Part shown: positions 3,206 to 16,362 of the stretch, piece after piece
Layout: every line of letters starts with the position of its first letter
Numbering within the stretch: position 1 is the first letter of the stretch
IMG/VR virus record: IMGVR_UViG_3300027909_000303
Location: 1 to 29,556 of that record
Reading direction: 5' to 3' (one strand)
DNA: 29,556 bases
Source of the DNA: a virus
Notes under the pieces: model-generated
Database searches by the model: none
Seen by the model: only the letters and a program-made list of their open reading frames with translations
Told to the model about the DNA's origin: nothing
Translations under genes and position numbers: made by a program

Positions 3206-3298
3206 GGGCCTGTAGCTTAATTGGAAGAGCACCCCAGACGTGGGGATGTAAGACCTTTGAGTCATACGTGGATCTGGGTTCGAATCCCAGCAGGCCTA
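3206..3298 (+). tRNA. Atypical tRNA, 93 nt, possibly tRNA-Gln (TTG)
   Basis: The acceptor GGGCCTG pairs with CAGGCCT, and the D arm is normal (GCTT...GAGC with TTGG in the loop). The T arm CTGGG-TTCGAAT-CCCAG is perfect and the discriminator is A. Between D and T arms there are two hairpins instead of one anticodon arm: CCCC-AGACGT-GGGG (3232-3245), and a longer one (3246-3269) with loop CTTTGA closed by GAC/GTC. The second would show TTG (Gln) in an abnormal loop. AGAC flanks the extra segment on both sides, as an insertion might leave. It may be a functional tRNA with an extra arm or a damaged one. Confidence 0.5.
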
Positions 3299-4220: not shown

Positions 4221-4537
4221 CAGACAGTAGTCAAACGACCCTCGAAGAGGCCAGCCGTTGCCCCAAGTGTGGACAGGCTGGGAACCAGACGAGCACGAAG
4301 CCTCTCACCTCCGGCTCCGGCAAGCTGCTGATGTTCAAGTGTGAGAACAGTCGTTGCAGGTGGTTCAACACTGAGTGGCCGGTGCAGGTGAGTGCCAACG
4401 GAACTATCCCGTTGACGCTCCAGCGGCCCAAGCAGTTCCAGCCGCTCATCGATGACGGCGGCAGGACGCTTGCCAACATCGAGAGGCAGTTGGAACTGGA
4501 GACCCAGAAGGGCTCCGAGATTAACAGAAGACGCTGA
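4217..4537 (+). CDS. Zinc-ribbon protein
   Basis: A 106-residue protein starting with GTG in a GTGA overlap with the previous gene. It holds one clear zinc ribbon: CPKCGQ near residue 15 and CENSRCRWF near residue 42, i.e. two Cys pairs about 25 residues apart. Such ribbons occur in transcription and nucleic-acid-binding accessory proteins. A short Pro/Gln segment and a C-terminal amphipathic helix ending in Arg residues follow. Together with the preceding winged-helix gene it suggests a small regulatory pair. It is the last gene before the structured RNA element at 4565-4645. Confidence 0.8.
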   Translation: MTDSSQTTLEEASRCPKCGQAGNQTSTKPLTSGSGKLLMFKCENSRCRWFNTEWPVQVSANGTIPLTLQRPKQFQPLIDDGGRTLANIERQLELETQKGSEINRRR

Positions 4538-4658: not shown

Positions 4659-5141
4659 GTGAGCGACAACAACGAGAGCGAAGGCGAGGCCCGTGAGGGT
4701 CATTCGTATGAGGGTGTAGAGGCGGCAGCGATCCAGAAGGAAGTGACAGACCTCCAGAACCTCTGGAACGCTTACGTCGAACTGACATCCGATGGTCGCG
4801 TTGCGGCAGGCCTTCATCCGCCGCCCGCCTTCATGGCCATGTACAGTGCACTGTTGGACATCAACAAGCCACTTGAAGCCATCATGGATATCGTCGAGCA
4901 CACCCAGGAGAACTACGACGCGCTCAGCAGCACGCTGACTCGTGTGGTGGCCTTCGGCGACGCCATGTTTCGCTTTGGTCAGTGGTGTGTGTCGCAGGGC
5001 TTGCTCCACGCCAACGCCATCCAGTGTCAGTGTGGAGCCGTCGACGACGACGAACTCAGCGAGGTGGCCAACAGTGACGTGAAGGTCGACCTATCCGACG
5101 ACGCCCTCAGGGCTTGGTTGGAAGGCGGCAAGGGTGCATAA
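4659..5141 (+). CDS. Acidic helical protein, unknown function
   Basis: A 160-residue acidic protein beginning at GTG 4659, behind AGGGAGG at 4648-4654. It is mostly predicted helix, with a hydrophobic central helix (PAFMAMYSALLDINKPLEAI) and a CQCG pair near residue 123 that is too isolated to call a zinc site. I do not recognise the family. Its interest lies in position: it directly follows RNA element A, and the SNF2-type helicase starts within its last codons (eight-base overlap). It could be a helicase partner, with expression of both set by the RNA leader; this is inference. Confidence 0.8.
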   Translation: MSDNNESEGEAREGHSYEGVEAAAIQKEVTDLQNLWNAYVELTSDGRVAAGLHPPPAFMAMYSALLDINKPLEAIMDIVEHTQENYDALSSTLTRVVAFGDAMFRFGQWCVSQGLLHANAIQCQCGAVDDDELSEVANSDVKVDLSDDALRAWLEGGKGA

Positions 5142-11841: not shown

Positions 11842-11913
11842 GGGCCTGCTAGAAGGTGACATCATTGTTGCCGATCGAAGGGTGATACGAGGGTTCGAGC
11901 CCCTCCAGGCCCG
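11842..11913 (+). ncRNA. Atypical tRNA-like element, 72 nt
   Basis: The acceptor GGGCCTG (11842-11848) pairs with CAGGCCC (11906-11912), with discriminator G. The T arm GAGGG-TTCGAGC-CCCTC is perfect. Total length is normal for a tRNA, but no acceptable D stem or five-base anticodon stem can be drawn. The only clear pairing in the middle is ATCATT with GGTGAT around a loop containing CGATCG. It resembles the elements at 1408 and 2871: intact outer half, abnormal inner half. Confidence 0.5.
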
Positions 11914-11966: not shown

Positions 11967-12932
11967 ATGGATGGCTGGTTTGTGTTGATGCTCGTCGCTC
12001 TGGGTCTCGTAGGGCTCATCAACCTTGGGAGCTTTTTGGCCTCCGAGACGGGAACCTACAAGAAGGACGGAAAGACACTCACGTACAACCCGCGACGGGC
12101 GACCCGGAAGGCAGCGTTGATCCCAGTTGCCCTGGCAGGATTCTTCCTGCTCATGTCGATGTGGGTCATCGTGGGAACCAACCAGGTCGGCATCTTCACA
12201 TCATTCGCAGCACCGTACGCTGCCACGGACAATGGCTTCGAGCTCAAGAGGCCTTGGGCCAAGAAGACGGAGTTCGACGGCAGCCGACAGTTCCTCCGGT
12301 TCTGCGGCAACGGTAACAACGACGAGGATCTGGACAAGCGCCAGTACCCCGGCGTCAACACCAAGATCGACGGGAACGCCAAGGCGACGCTCTGCGGCAC
12401 CATCGCCTGGCAGATGAAGGCGACGACCGACGAGGAGAAGCAGCAGGCCATCGAACTGTTCAGGCAGTACAAGACGTTCGAGAGGGTCTCGACCAACCTA
12501 GTCTACCCCGGACTCAAGGTCGCCATCGGCAAGGCTCTTGCCAACCTCAATCCCTTGATCGCAGAGAAGAACATGTCCGTCGCTGACATCAACGAGGACG
12601 TGCTCGGAGCGCTGAAGACACAGGTCTCCGGATCCCTACAGGTCCTGACGGCCGACATCGCACCGCCGGACTACGACGATGACACGGACAAGGCTATCGC
12701 TGCCGACCTCGCGCAGAAGGCCAAGACGTCACTCGCTGGAGAGAAGGAGAAGACGAACATCGCTGAGGCAAAAGCCAACGGTGCCATCGACGACTCCATC
12801 CAGGACCCGAAGGTGCTTGTCAACAAGTGCTTGGACATCGCCAAGGAGCTCGGGTACAACCCCGGCCTCTGCATGATGTCGTCAGGGGCAGGGATCATCT
12901 TGCCGGGTGACGCGGTGGCAAAGAAGCAGTAG
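11967..12932 (+). CDS. SPFH/Band-7-like membrane protein
   Basis: A 321-residue membrane protein. There are two N-terminal hydrophobic segments (residues about 4-24 and 50-72), then a region fitting the SPFH/Band-7 (prohibitin/stomatin) pattern: VGTNQVGIFTSF, a strand-rich part, and the long charged helical section KAKTSLAGEKEKTNIAEAKANGA typical of these oligomer-forming proteins. Such proteins assemble on the inner membrane face and organise membrane proteins or proteases. Some large phages of actinobacteria carry one; the role is unclear. An intact ACGGAGCAAC ribosome-binding site precedes the ATG. It stands alone between two tRNA-like regions, so it is probably transcribed separately. Confidence 0.8.
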   Translation: MDGWFVLMLVALGLVGLINLGSFLASETGTYKKDGKTLTYNPRRATRKAALIPVALAGFFLLMSMWVIVGTNQVGIFTSFAAPYAATDNGFELKRPWAKKTEFDGSRQFLRFCGNGNNDEDLDKRQYPGVNTKIDGNAKATLCGTIAWQMKATTDEEKQQAIELFRQYKTFERVSTNLVYPGLKVAIGKALANLNPLIAEKNMSVADINEDVLGALKTQVSGSLQVLTADIAPPDYDDDTDKAIAADLAQKAKTSLAGEKEKTNIAEAKANGAIDDSIQDPKVLVNKCLDIAKELGYNPGLCMMSSGAGIILPGDAVAKKQ

Positions 12933-12941
12933 TAAGTGGTC

Positions 12942-12987
12942 GAGCCAGCTGGTGTGTACGTGGGAGGTTCGATTCCTCCCTGGCTCG
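12942..12987 (+). ncRNA. tRNA-like minihelix (acceptor plus T arm only)
   Basis: GAGCCAG (12942-12948) pairs perfectly with CTGGCTC (12980-12986), with discriminator G. GGAGG-TTCGATT-CCTCC (12963-12979) is a perfect T arm. Only 14 bases (CTGGTGTGTACGTG) separate the 5' acceptor strand from the T arm, so D and anticodon arms are absent. The result is the minimal coaxial helix recognised by several tRNA enzymes. It begins nine bases after the SPFH-like gene. Confidence 0.6.
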
Positions 12988-12993
12988 CTTAGA

Positions 12994-13094
12994 CCTGTAT
13001 GATGGTCTCGTCGTTAGGTAAGGACCGAAGGCATTGAACTACGAACGACACTGGGTTCGAAAGAACAGGATGCCTCCGATCACCATCACACAGG
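12994..13094 (+). ncRNA. Structured RNA with second minihelix-like core
   Basis: CCTGTATGATGG (12994-13005) pairs with CCATCACACAGG (13083-13094) with one mismatch. Inside, AGGCATT (13029-13035) pairs with GATGCCT (13069-13075), like a seven-base acceptor. It encloses a 15-nt linker and a GTTC-GAAA-GAAC hairpin (13055-13066) set in a T-arm-like CTGGGTTCGA sequence. GTCGTT (13010-13015) could also pair with AACGAC (13044-13049), crossing the inner helix as a pseudoknot. Whether it is a small RNA, tRNA relic or leader of the next operon is unknown. Confidence 0.55.
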
Positions 13095-13119
13095 TAAGAA
13101 AATTCATCGAGTTGACGTC

Positions 13120-13148
13120 TTGTGGTTCACGTTGGATTCCTATATAAT
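13120..13148 (+). promoter_or_regulatory. Sigma70-type promoter for the replication operon
   Basis: TATAAT at 13143-13148 lies within TTCCTATATAATAG, identical over 14 bases to the promoter near 3347. A weak -35 TTGTGG (13120-13125) gives a 17-nt spacer; TTGACG at 13112 is a better match but 25 bases away. It is followed by AGGAGGTG and the TTG start at 13182. Confidence 0.7.
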
Positions 13149-13181
13149 AGAGGGAGAGACAAAAACCGTAGGAGGTGCTAA

Positions 13182-14552
13182 TTGACCACCACGTTCAGTT
13201 CCGTTCATGATGAGGTAAACTGGCTCATCGAGCAGCGACTGGTCCACAGTGTTCACACCTCGACCCGTATGTCCTTCCGTGGCTGTCGTAGACGGTGGGA
13301 CTGGTCGACGCGGCAGATGTATTATCCCCTCGTGACACCGAGACCGTTGGAGTTCGGCTCCGCCTTCCACAAGGCAATGGAGAAGTACTACGACCCGCTG
13401 ACATGGCATGACAAAGAGACGGCCGCAGCACTTGCTCAAGCTGCCTTCGTCCAAGAGTGCAAGGAGCAGTACAGCAAGTATCTGAAGTTGAACAGAGGCA
13501 ACATCGATCCTGCGATGAAGAAGGACTACGACGAGCGCATTGTCCTAGGCCTCGGCATGCTCCGGTACTACACGCGGTGGGTGTCGCCCGAGCACGACTT
13601 CAACTTCACGCCAGTCAAGGTCGAGATCGAGTTCGAAGTACCGATCACCGACCCCGACGACAACTACATGTGGTGTAAGTGCCAGCAATGCGTCACAAGG
13701 TCGAACGCGTACTGGCTGAAACAGTACCACTCCGAGGGCAAGCTTCTGCACATCAGGAACGTAGACGCTCTAGCCCACGATACCAAGTTCGAAGATGGTA
13801 TCTTCTACACGAGCGTGAGTGGTAAGCTCGTTGACATCGACGACCCGATAGACATCGCGACTTGGTCAGGTCTGCCCATCACATACGGTGGGCGCATCGA
13901 CATGCTGGCCAAGGATGACCTCGGGCGCTACTGGGTGTTCGACTGGAAGACGGCGGCGAGGCTGGCAGGCAAGGACGCTGGCACAGACGACGACTTCATG
14001 TACCTCGACGACCAGATAACTTCATACTGTTGGGCACTCTGGCGATTGGGCATTCCGATCGCTGGCTTTGTCTACGCAGAAGTGAAGAAGGCCGTGCCAG
14101 AGGAACCCGAGCCCAACAAGACCCAGAGGCTTGGTAGGTGGTACTCTGTCAACAAGCAGCTCGCCACGACGGCGGTCATCTATGAGCGAACGGTTGAGGA
14201 GAACGATCCTCAGGCATACGCTGCTGGTTTGTACAACGACTTCATCGGATACCTCAAGTCGGAGGACGGACCGAAGTTCCACGTGCGCCATCAGATCCAG
14301 CGGTCGGAGGCTGAGCTTCGTAACGCCGGCGTCAACATCTGGCATGAAGCGTGTGAGATGACGAGCCCCACCCTTCGGATCTACCCGTCGCCAGGACGGT
14401 TTGCTTGTGGCAACTGTGCTTACAAAGAGCCCTGCCTCATGCGCAACAAGGACGAAGACTACGAGTACACTCTTAAAACCATGTTCGAGAAACGTGTGAA
14501 GCACTACTGGGAAGACAGAGCGCCAAGCACAGATAGCAGAGGAGGCCAATAA
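13182..14552 (+). CDS. Cas4/RecB-like PD-(D/E)XK exonuclease
   Basis: A 456-residue nuclease probably trimming DNA ends for recombination and replication. The catalytic signature is GRIDML (Asp about 240) followed by VFDWKTA (Asp 254, Lys 256), the D...(D/E)xK pattern of RecB-family enzymes. Four Cys (35, 409, 412, 418; the last three as CGNCAYKEPC) fit the iron-sulfur cluster of Cas4/AddB relatives. An extra CKCQQC knot near 165-170 may bind zinc. The N-terminal SFRGCRRRW...EFGSAFHKAM matches the family's first helix. It starts at TTG 13182 behind GGAGGTG; the frame has no good ATG. It begins the operon with Sak4-like and ssDNA-binding partners. Confidence 0.9.
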   Translation: MTTTFSSVHDEVNWLIEQRLVHSVHTSTRMSFRGCRRRWDWSTRQMYYPLVTPRPLEFGSAFHKAMEKYYDPLTWHDKETAAALAQAAFVQECKEQYSKYLKLNRGNIDPAMKKDYDERIVLGLGMLRYYTRWVSPEHDFNFTPVKVEIEFEVPITDPDDNYMWCKCQQCVTRSNAYWLKQYHSEGKLLHIRNVDALAHDTKFEDGIFYTSVSGKLVDIDDPIDIATWSGLPITYGGRIDMLAKDDLGRYWVFDWKTAARLAGKDAGTDDDFMYLDDQITSYCWALWRLGIPIAGFVYAEVKKAVPEEPEPNKTQRLGRWYSVNKQLATTAVIYERTVEENDPQAYAAGLYNDFIGYLKSEDGPKFHVRHQIQRSEAELRNAGVNIWHEACEMTSPTLRIYPSPGRFACGNCAYKEPCLMRNKDEDYEYTLKTMFEKRVKHYWEDRAPSTDSRGGQ

Positions 14553-14938: not shown

Positions 14939-15780
14939 CACAGATCCTTACACCAACATCGTTCGCCGGCCTCACCATCGAGAAGCCGTCGGTAACTGTT
15001 CCCACCCTCACCATGTTGGTCTACGGTCGGTCGGGCATCGGCAAGACTACCCTAGCCGGCTCGGCAGATACGGTTCCGGAGATGAGAAAGGTCCTCTACC
15101 TCGACGTTGAAGCTGGAACGCTCTCGCTGCGCAAGACCAACTACGAGGTCGACGTGATGCGCATCACCGACTATCGGCAGTTCGCCGAGGTGTATGCGGC
15201 TTTGTATGCCGGCAATCACGGCTACCAGACGGTCGTGCTCGACTCGCTGACGGAGATTCAGGATCTCTGCATGCGCGAGATCATGCGGGAGATGAAAGAG
15301 GACCCCGAGAACAGCGAACGTGATTCAGACGTTCCGGGCATGTACGAGTGGAACAAGAATGAGAAGCGCATCAAGCGACTCATCCGGCTCTTCCGCGACT
15401 TGCCCCTCAACGTGATCTTCACCTCACTCGTCAGAGAGGACAAGGACACCAAGACGGGTGTGGTCATGAAGCTGCCCGACCTTCCGGGCAAGCTTGCCAG
15501 TCGTGTTGCAGCACTGTTCGACATCGTGCTCTACTTCACGGCGGTGGGCGAGGAGGGAACGCAGAAGCGGATAGTTGCATCGCAGTCAGGTACCAACACG
15601 GTAGCCAAGAACCGCGGCTCGGATCGTCTGCCTCCGATTCTGGAGATCCCCGACACCCGAGTGGCATCTGCGATGTCGATCATCTATCCGATGATCGTCG
15701 GCGAAGTAGGTCAAGACGCCGGCGTTCAGGAAAGTGACTCCGTTGGAGTCGAAACCGTTGCGGCCGTAGCCGCCAGTTAA
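14920..15780 (+). CDS. Sak4-like RecA-fold recombination ATPase
   Basis: A 286-residue P-loop ATPase of the Sak4 type, which anneals or exchanges ssDNA strands in phage recombination together with an ssDNA-binding protein. Walker A is YGRSGIGKTT (35-44); the strand VVLDSL (Asp about 108) is Walker B. An LYLDVEAGT strand after Walker A and EIPDTRVAS near the end suit the RecA-fold core; the Ala/Val/Ser tail is disordered. ATG 14920 has no good ribosome-binding site; GTG 14935, which makes a GTGA overlap typical of this genome, is a real alternative (15 bases shorter). The adjacent DUF669-like gene is the usual partner. Confidence 0.88.
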   Translation: MGNSKVTQILTPTSFAGLTIEKPSVTVPTLTMLVYGRSGIGKTTLAGSADTVPEMRKVLYLDVEAGTLSLRKTNYEVDVMRITDYRQFAEVYAALYAGNHGYQTVVLDSLTEIQDLCMREIMREMKEDPENSERDSDVPGMYEWNKNEKRIKRLIRLFRDLPLNVIFTSLVREDKDTKTGVVMKLPDLPGKLASRVAALFDIVLYFTAVGEEGTQKRIVASQSGTNTVAKNRGSDRLPPILEIPDTRVASAMSIIYPMIVGEVGQDAGVQESDSVGVETVAAVAAS

Positions 15781-15798
15781 CAGTTGGGAGTTCAGTTC

Positions 15799-16362
15799 AT
15801 GAGTGACGCGGGCATCCGTGTAAACATGTCCAGCAAGGAAGGCAAGAGTGCCTCACTCGAGCCTCTTCCTTCCGGTCGCTACCTGATGGCGATCACGGAC
15901 ATCGACCTCGACGAGTGTGGTCCCACCAGCAAGAACGAGGGCGAGCCGATGTTCAAGATCGAGCTCACCGTCCAGGAGGGCGACTACGAGAACCGCAAGG
16001 CGTGGACGAACGTCATGCTGTTCAAGGGCGCACTGTATTCCATCTCTCAGATGCTGAAGGCTCAGGGCATCGCGATCACGGAAGTCGGCGAGTCGGCCGA
16101 GTTCCAGGTCCCGGGCTACGAGCCCAACATCATCCCCGGCCCTGAGTGGTGGATGAGCAAGCAGTTCTGCGTCCGCGTCAAGCTCGTCGGCAAGCGCAAG
16201 GTCAAGCAGCCTGACGGTTCGTACAAGGAGTACGACGAGCGCGCCGAGGTCAAGGGCTTCATGGCTCCGTCCGACTTCAAGCCGGGTGAGGGACCGAAGA
16301 AGGCTTCGACCAACAGCGCTGTCGGTTCCGTCAGCGGCGGCATGCCTTCCATCCTGCCCTAG
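15799..16362 (+). CDS. DUF669-like single-stranded DNA-binding protein
   Basis: A 187-residue protein resembling the DUF669 family of phage ssDNA-binding proteins: an early LPSGRYLMAITDIDLDE strand, an EGEPMFKIELTVQEGDYENRK region (read as separate strands), a WTNVMLFKG strand and an acidic/Ser-rich flexible tail. OB-fold proteins like this coat ssDNA and work with Sak4 ATPases. ATG 15799 is preferred to TTG 15784 because GGAG at 15786-15789 is spaced about 9 bases from it. GC-rich codons and position suggest strong expression. It ends in a stop followed by a structured intergenic region. Confidence 0.82.
   Translation: MSDAGIRVNMSSKEGKSASLEPLPSGRYLMAITDIDLDECGPTSKNEGEPMFKIELTVQEGDYENRKAWTNVMLFKGALYSISQMLKAQGIAITEVGESAEFQVPGYEPNIIPGPEWWMSKQFCVRVKLVGKRKVKQPDGSYKEYDERAEVKGFMAPSDFKPGEGPKKASTNSAVGSVSGGMPSILP

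Follow-up and report, generated by a model that had tools for sequence, protein, structure and literature searches.

The window, by which we mean the whole 29.6-kb stretch of DNA analysed here, is a virus record of a soil phage, probably a fragment, whose genes include those for a band-7 protein, a PD-(D/E)XK nuclease, a Sak4-like protein and a primase. Judging from its relatives, the host is likely to be an actinobacterium. ARAGORN and Rfam found three tRNAs in the window (Met at 1283, Gly at 1798 and Arg at 3206), and neither ARAGORN nor Rfam at its gathering cut-offs made a call on a separate 46-nt element at 12942-12987, which starts 9 nt past the stop codon of the band-7 gene on the same strand. 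The features of this locus are as follows.

11967-12932, + strand: gene for a band-7/SPFH-domain membrane protein, directly upstream of the 46-nt element
12942-12948, + strand: 5' strand of the acceptor helix, GAGCCAG (read from the sequence and the fold)
12949-12962, + strand: spacer of 14 nt, CTGGTGTGTACGTG, which replaces the D arm, anticodon arm and variable loop
12963-12979, + strand: T arm, GGAGG-TTCGATT-CCTCC (read from the sequence and the fold)
12980-12986, + strand: 3' strand of the acceptor helix, CTGGCTC (read from the sequence)
12987, + strand: discriminator, G (read from the sequence)
12994-13094, + strand: structured RNA-like region, outer helix of 12994-13006 with 13082-13094, core GGTCTCGTCGTTAGG ... 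CTACGAACG
13099-13151, + strand: promoter-like stretch with TATAAT at 13143-13148, conserved in the relative L004 (83% over 54 nt)

Anatomy and surroundings of the 46-nt element

The original prediction described a seven-base acceptor and a perfect T arm with the loop TTCGATT, joined by 14 bases and 46 nt long in all, and this anatomy is exact in the sequence. All 12 pairs (7 in the acceptor and 5 in the T stem) are Watson-Crick, and the helices are contiguous. The element therefore has both the tRNA-type 7-bp acceptor and 5-bp T stem with a TTCRANN loop and the stacked acceptor-T helix of about 12 bp, closed by a T loop, that is expected of an RNase P or RNase Z substrate. C12941 can pair with G12987 to give an 8-bp acceptor helix. 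CCA is not encoded after the element, the next letters being GCTT. The predicted RNA fold has an energy of -19.8 kcal/mol, compared with a mean of -13.0 for shuffled sequences (z = -2.9), and base composition predicts 1.2e-4 such elements in the window, both strands included, under a model requiring 7+5 Watson-Crick pairs, a TTCRA loop and a spacer of 8-30 nt. Shuffles and base composition together ruled out a chance origin.

The structured region that follows has a core (GGTCTC-N-CGTTAGG ... TACGAACG) conserved in three phages, namely the window, L005 (~4785-4885) and L006 (~4405-4510), in each case upstream of a nuclease gene. The letters of its outer helix differ among these three and are self-complementary in each; Rfam gave no match to this region in the window. 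The promoter-like stretch sits upstream of the nuclease gene at 13182, and a promoter scan made no call on it. A DNA search of phages around the 46-nt element returned a single weak match, confined to the band-7 gene, and a search for closer relatives of that gene gave just L010 and distant phages. In L010 the orthologous band-7 gene is followed by a 76-nt tRNA-like element.

We compared the element with known classes of tRNA and tRNA-like RNA. It was rejected as a canonical tRNA, with no RF00005 or ARAGORN match and just 14 nt between acceptor and T stem. It shares with the tRNA-like domain of tmRNA an acceptor and T arm and the absence of an anticodon arm, but it differs in having no G3-U70, reading frame or pseudoknots, and the window gave no RF00023 or ARAGORN tmRNA match. 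The Y RNA YrlA is likewise a known bacterial non-coding tRNA mimic, but it is about 114 nt long with a Ro60-binding stem, whereas the 46-nt element has no such stem and no RF02553 match; the 29.6-kb record, a fragment, contained no TROVE gene. Armless mitochondrial tRNAs resemble the element as miniaturised tRNAs handled by tRNA enzymes (PMC7730189), but they have lost the D and T arms and retain the anticodon arm, the reverse of what is seen here for the T and anticodon arms. Two Rfam matches below cut-off, to tRNA-Sec (E 0.49) and to antisense Plastid-ycf2 (E 0.041), were discarded, as they stem from the T arm. As a separate observation, L010 has a weak YrlA-like (Y RNA) match at 2462-2573 (34.5 bits), and this phage relative encodes a TROVE/Ro60-like protein (L010; G007 15376-16305).

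Related elements in phages and Streptomyces

We scanned 1.26 Mb of sequence, consisting of the window and the loci (metagenome fragments) where genes related to its nuclease and band-7 genes lie, for elements with 7/7 acceptor pairs, 5/5 T-stem pairs and GTTCRANYC. This strict scan returned 87 elements against 0.3 expected from dinucleotide shuffles, and 37 of the 87 are not ARAGORN tRNAs. With the T loop relaxed, sense-strand elements numbered 96 and opposite-strand elements 3. One-third of the acceptor and T-arm elements (33%) start 5-15 nt past an ORF stop, compared with 2.1% of shifted positions, and the distance from the stop codon peaks at exactly 8 nt. A start 8 nt past the ORF stop is favoured by tRNAs and tRNA-like elements alike in this phage group (96 elements in the window, L007, L009, L010 and L042-L119).

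The non-tRNA elements are a mixed set, some keeping a D arm while another hairpin replaces the anticodon arm (L049, L051, L062) and others keeping neither. A normal D arm with an enlarged or replaced anticodon/variable region was also seen at 3206-3298 of the window, at 881-964 and 1586-1688 of L049, at 3244-3340 of L051 and at 142-239 of L062. Elements remaining from the relaxed scan with spacers of 6-30 nt were chance-like, mostly on the wrong strand, and were set aside. The window itself has three further elements that combine an acceptor with a T arm and do not form a cloverleaf.

1408-1520, + strand: 113 nt, with counterparts in G001 and G007
2871-2970, + strand: 100 nt, with a homologue at G001 33778-33880 in which the acceptor is changed yet paired
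11842-11913, + strand: 72 nt, starting 8 nt past a stop codon

Minihelices in the narrow sense, with spacers of 14-19 nt and a length of 46-51 nt, were found in the window and in five other relatives.

L072 1614-1659: minihelix of 46 nt with a 14-nt spacer, then G-CTT as in the window
L084 998-1048: minihelix
L046 3467-3514: minihelix
L049 2988-3036: minihelix
L051 1712-1759: minihelix

All six begin 5-10 nt past a stop codon. A search of related phages for the same 46-nt form had been suggested as a check; L072 has the same length and spacer, and no close relative of the window has the same 46-mer at the same place.

The minihelices of L046, L049 and L051 all follow the same gene (protein identity 61-69%), and a search with that upstream protein found a fourth orthologous example in L126. 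The corresponding site holds a fuller tRNA-like element in L127 and no element in L121, L122 or L125. The four orthologous acceptors (GCCCCTG, GGATCCG, GGATCCG with one G-U pair, and GGACCTG) each have their own complement. We extended this family with a pattern search for the shared core in viral contigs and Streptomyces genomes, followed by a covariance model, and obtained 16 members. In the 16-member alignment, which was fitted to the covariance model, all 240 base-pair cells (240/240) hold standard pairs, and two-sided changes occur at 10 of the 15 pairs, a result matched by 0/500 shuffles. A hand alignment of 13 sequences agreed with this, being paired in 195/195 cells. The 16 sequences contain 13 G-U cells and zero A-C cells, which suggests that the sense-strand RNA is the molecule that pairs. 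The family conserves a spacer hairpin core (GCCRUGAKGGY) and a T loop (AUCGANU), while the acceptor sequences and the discriminator vary freely.

Of 150 Streptomyces genomes, 21 were positive with the family model; a sample of 396 genomes across the phylum gave 2 positives, both of them already in the Streptomyces set. Family loci of 46-50 nt (L141-L147 and L149-L169 in Streptomyces genomes, with L138 and L140) at times have two or three copies together, and in Streptomyces the family is carried by mobile elements and phages. An FtsK/SpoIIIE-like gene lies a few kilobases downstream of the minihelix in the three mobile elements inspected.

The 46-mer of the window has the architecture of this family (7-bp acceptor, 5-bp T arm, 7-nt loop, and a spacer of 14 nt compared with 14-18 nt), but it has no GCCRUGAKGGY core and received 12 bits (E = 1.3) from the family model (R2, 16 members). 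We therefore did not file it as a family member, and for the same reasons the covariation evidence concerns its relatives and not the window copy. The 46-nt element of L072 is intermediate (23.5 bits, model R1). The original prediction had also argued that exact preservation of both helices of this half of a tRNA speaks against simple decay; this gained support at the level of the class, in that minihelices of the same size recur and an orthologous set shows strong compensatory change. Helices that stay paired while their letters change look like those of a real and largely unrecognised kind of small tRNA-like RNA, not debris.

A further minihelix, of 55 nt, was found in Bixzunavirus between a peptidyl-tRNA hydrolase gene and a suppressor-type tRNA in 8/8 genomes examined, with no annotation in these eight records. 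ACCA is encoded after its acceptor in three (Norm, ArcherS7 and Shrimp), and the stretch that holds it was matched in 191 phage records. Besides this minihelix, Bixzunavirus and Myrnavirus (L033 1207-1532, L034-L041) have other unannotated acceptor and T-arm elements between the peptidyl-tRNA hydrolase gene and a tRNA-Pyl/suppressor, some of them encoding CCA. The mini-elements follow the acceptor and T-arm rules of the tRNA genes of Bixzunavirus and related actinophages, and like these they are placed among tRNA genes or after stop codons; however, they have no anticodon arm and so cannot decode, ARAGORN misses them, and they are unannotated in the records examined.

Resemblance to tRNA-Lys

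The tRNA closest to the 46-mer was an actinobacterial tRNA-Lys(UUU), identical in the T arm and at 30/31 acceptor and T-arm positions, a match that was found by searching with the element's own 3' half. Of 396 actinobacterial genomes, 3 have a tRNA-Lys gene whose 3' part is identical to the element's 24-nt 3' half. Among tRNAs of the loci that this search had not fetched, the best was a phage tRNA-Lys(CUU), at 25/31. At the one acceptor position that differs, tRNA-Lys(UUU) has a G-U pair and the element has A-U; the identity stops at about the discriminator, before the CCA. By this sequence likeness, an origin from tRNA-Lys is suggestive.

We considered whether the window copy is the functionless product of a recent internal deletion in a tRNA-Lys gene that has not yet decayed. 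Both tRNA-Lys matches favour such an event, and so does L004, which has a 71-nt tRNA-like element in the same slot. Full tRNAs at this slot in related phages had been named as the sign of a recent deletion, and for this copy L004 gives an ambiguous answer, as ARAGORN calls its element tRNA-Gly but Rfam scores it at only 24.4 bits, below the cut-off. However, the tRNA-Lys(UUU) match came from a search with the element's 3' half, the one changed acceptor base gives A-U in place of G-U in an element whose helices are perfect, the position past a stop codon is common to the minihelices, and minihelices recur in other relatives, one set being orthologous and covarying. We judge a functionless remnant unlikely. 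Because the single acceptor difference makes G-U into A-U, a deletion origin and a present function are compatible, and the proposal that the element is what remains of a deletion holds as a likely account of its origin, but not as simple decay.

The same 24-nt identity might instead mark a DNA element, either the core of a phage attachment site (attP) that duplicates the 3' end of a tRNA gene in the host, or a DNA cruciform. An attP core would be expected to keep tRNA identity through the CCA and to lie near an integrase gene, but the identity ends short of the CCA and none of the ten larger ORFs scanned matched an integrase family. Nor would an attP core bring with it the complementary 5' acceptor strand, and the related family, which has G-U pairs and no A-C pairs, looks like RNA. 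We consider a DNA element highly improbable.

Predicted processing and alternative roles

The reading that we prefer, although we regard it as evenly balanced between right and wrong, is that the element is a transcribed mini-tRNA, probably derived from tRNA-Lys, that is cut by host enzymes to form the 3' end of the upstream mRNA. The acceptor and T-arm half of a tRNA would be transcribed and kept as a structured RNA, and host RNase P, probably with RNase Z and the CCA-adding enzyme, would read the stacked acceptor and T arm and the elbow. RNase P would cut at 12941/12942, a few nucleotides past the band-7 stop codon, leaving the upstream mRNA with a defined 3' end (punctuation) and freeing the mini-tRNA, to which CCA would be added, and the structured RNA downstream. 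Pairing of C12941 with G12987 could shift or weaken RNase P cleavage. The observations that support a mini-tRNA are its anatomy, the excess over chance, the placement after stop codons, the sense-strand orientation, the recurrence and the compensatory evolution in relatives. Among the four roles originally offered (decoy, charged minihelix, processing signal or remains of a deletion), a processing signal is the best fit, because every phage minihelix sits 5-10 nt past a stop codon.

There are precedents for such processing. A 24-nt minihelix is cleaved in vitro by RNase P (PMC6614837), and mascRNA and menRNA mimic the tRNA elbow, are thereby released from the 3' end of longer RNAs (MALAT1 and MEN-beta) by RNase P and RNase Z, and are CCA-tailed (PMC11693755). 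These RNAs resemble the 46-mer in combining an acceptor and a T stem-loop with diminished D and anticodon parts and in forming the 3' end of a longer transcript, but they are mammalian and keep reduced D and anticodon arms, whereas the 46-mer is phage-borne, has no sequence relation to them, and its processing is a prediction. By this analogy, the mini-tRNA may cut its transcript after the stop codon as mascRNA ends MALAT1, and the single GG within the 14-nt spacer could be the equivalent of G18-G19 (PMC11693755).

The core hairpin that the orthologous family conserves suggests that RNase P is not the sole partner, and this makes a trans-acting mimic or decoy the main rival to a processed mini-tRNA, although we think it rather unlikely. 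Such an RNA would be stable, processed and CCA-tailed, and would occupy enzymes that bind the acceptor-T arm (tRNA-modifying toxins, end-modifying defence enzymes or RNases) or bind a dedicated protein. Consistent with this, the spacer hairpin and the AUCGANU loop conserved in the family are needless for bare cutting, the family is borne by Streptomyces mobile elements and phages, and phages are known to counter tRNA-targeting defences with tRNAs (PMC10264068, PMC11555353). However, the spacer in the window lacks the GCCRUGAKGGY core, and there is no candidate target.

An acceptor with a T arm is enough for some aminoacyl-tRNA synthetases. A charged minihelix that enters translation or another aminoacyl-tRNA-using pathway would draw on this property, but none of the listed minihelices has G3-U70, and within the orthologous family the acceptor and discriminator vary freely, which speaks against one particular synthetase charging them. 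Moreover, mascRNA is a fuller mimic and is not aminoacylated (PMC11693755). Charging of the 46-nt element is thus unlikely and the proposal of a charged minihelix is disfavoured; we find it very improbable that one enters such pathways.

More broadly, and tentatively, actinobacterial phages and conjugative elements may carry undescribed stand-alone mini-tRNAs of 46-55 nt that are cut after stop codons by host tRNA-processing enzymes and that both punctuate mRNA 3' ends and act in trans as tRNA mimics, one subfamily having a conserved mini-hairpin; as a whole this is possible but doubtful. Most work on the half of tRNA thought to be enough for processing has treated it as a construct for the laboratory or a model of evolution. 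If the proposal is true, natural free-standing minihelices, which selection keeps paired in phages and Streptomyces mobile elements and which sit just past stop codons, would allow the needs of RNase P, RNase Z, the CCA enzyme and T-loop modification enzymes to be tested in a living system, and phages would be shown to end mRNAs through tRNA processing.

Minihelices escape standard tRNA finders, and the family members searched matched no Rfam family. Literature searches for published phage minihelices, in open-access papers, gave nothing on point, which is weak evidence of novelty. When viral contigs were searched for the same acceptor and T-arm pattern, three matches were obtained, none of them homologous to the 46-mer: one is a normal tRNA-Gln and two belong to arrays in Ackermannviridae. 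In these phages (L001 and L003, minus strand, ~1-900) a 1.5-kb array of T-arm hairpins, not called by ARAGORN, includes a T arm on a 15-17-bp helix, and the letters of this helix differ between the two phages while the pairing is kept. DNA similar to this array occurs in 736 phage records, Felixounavirus included, and the authors of the CBA120 genome reported an unusual 2-kb gene-free region near the tRNAs (PMC3184105).
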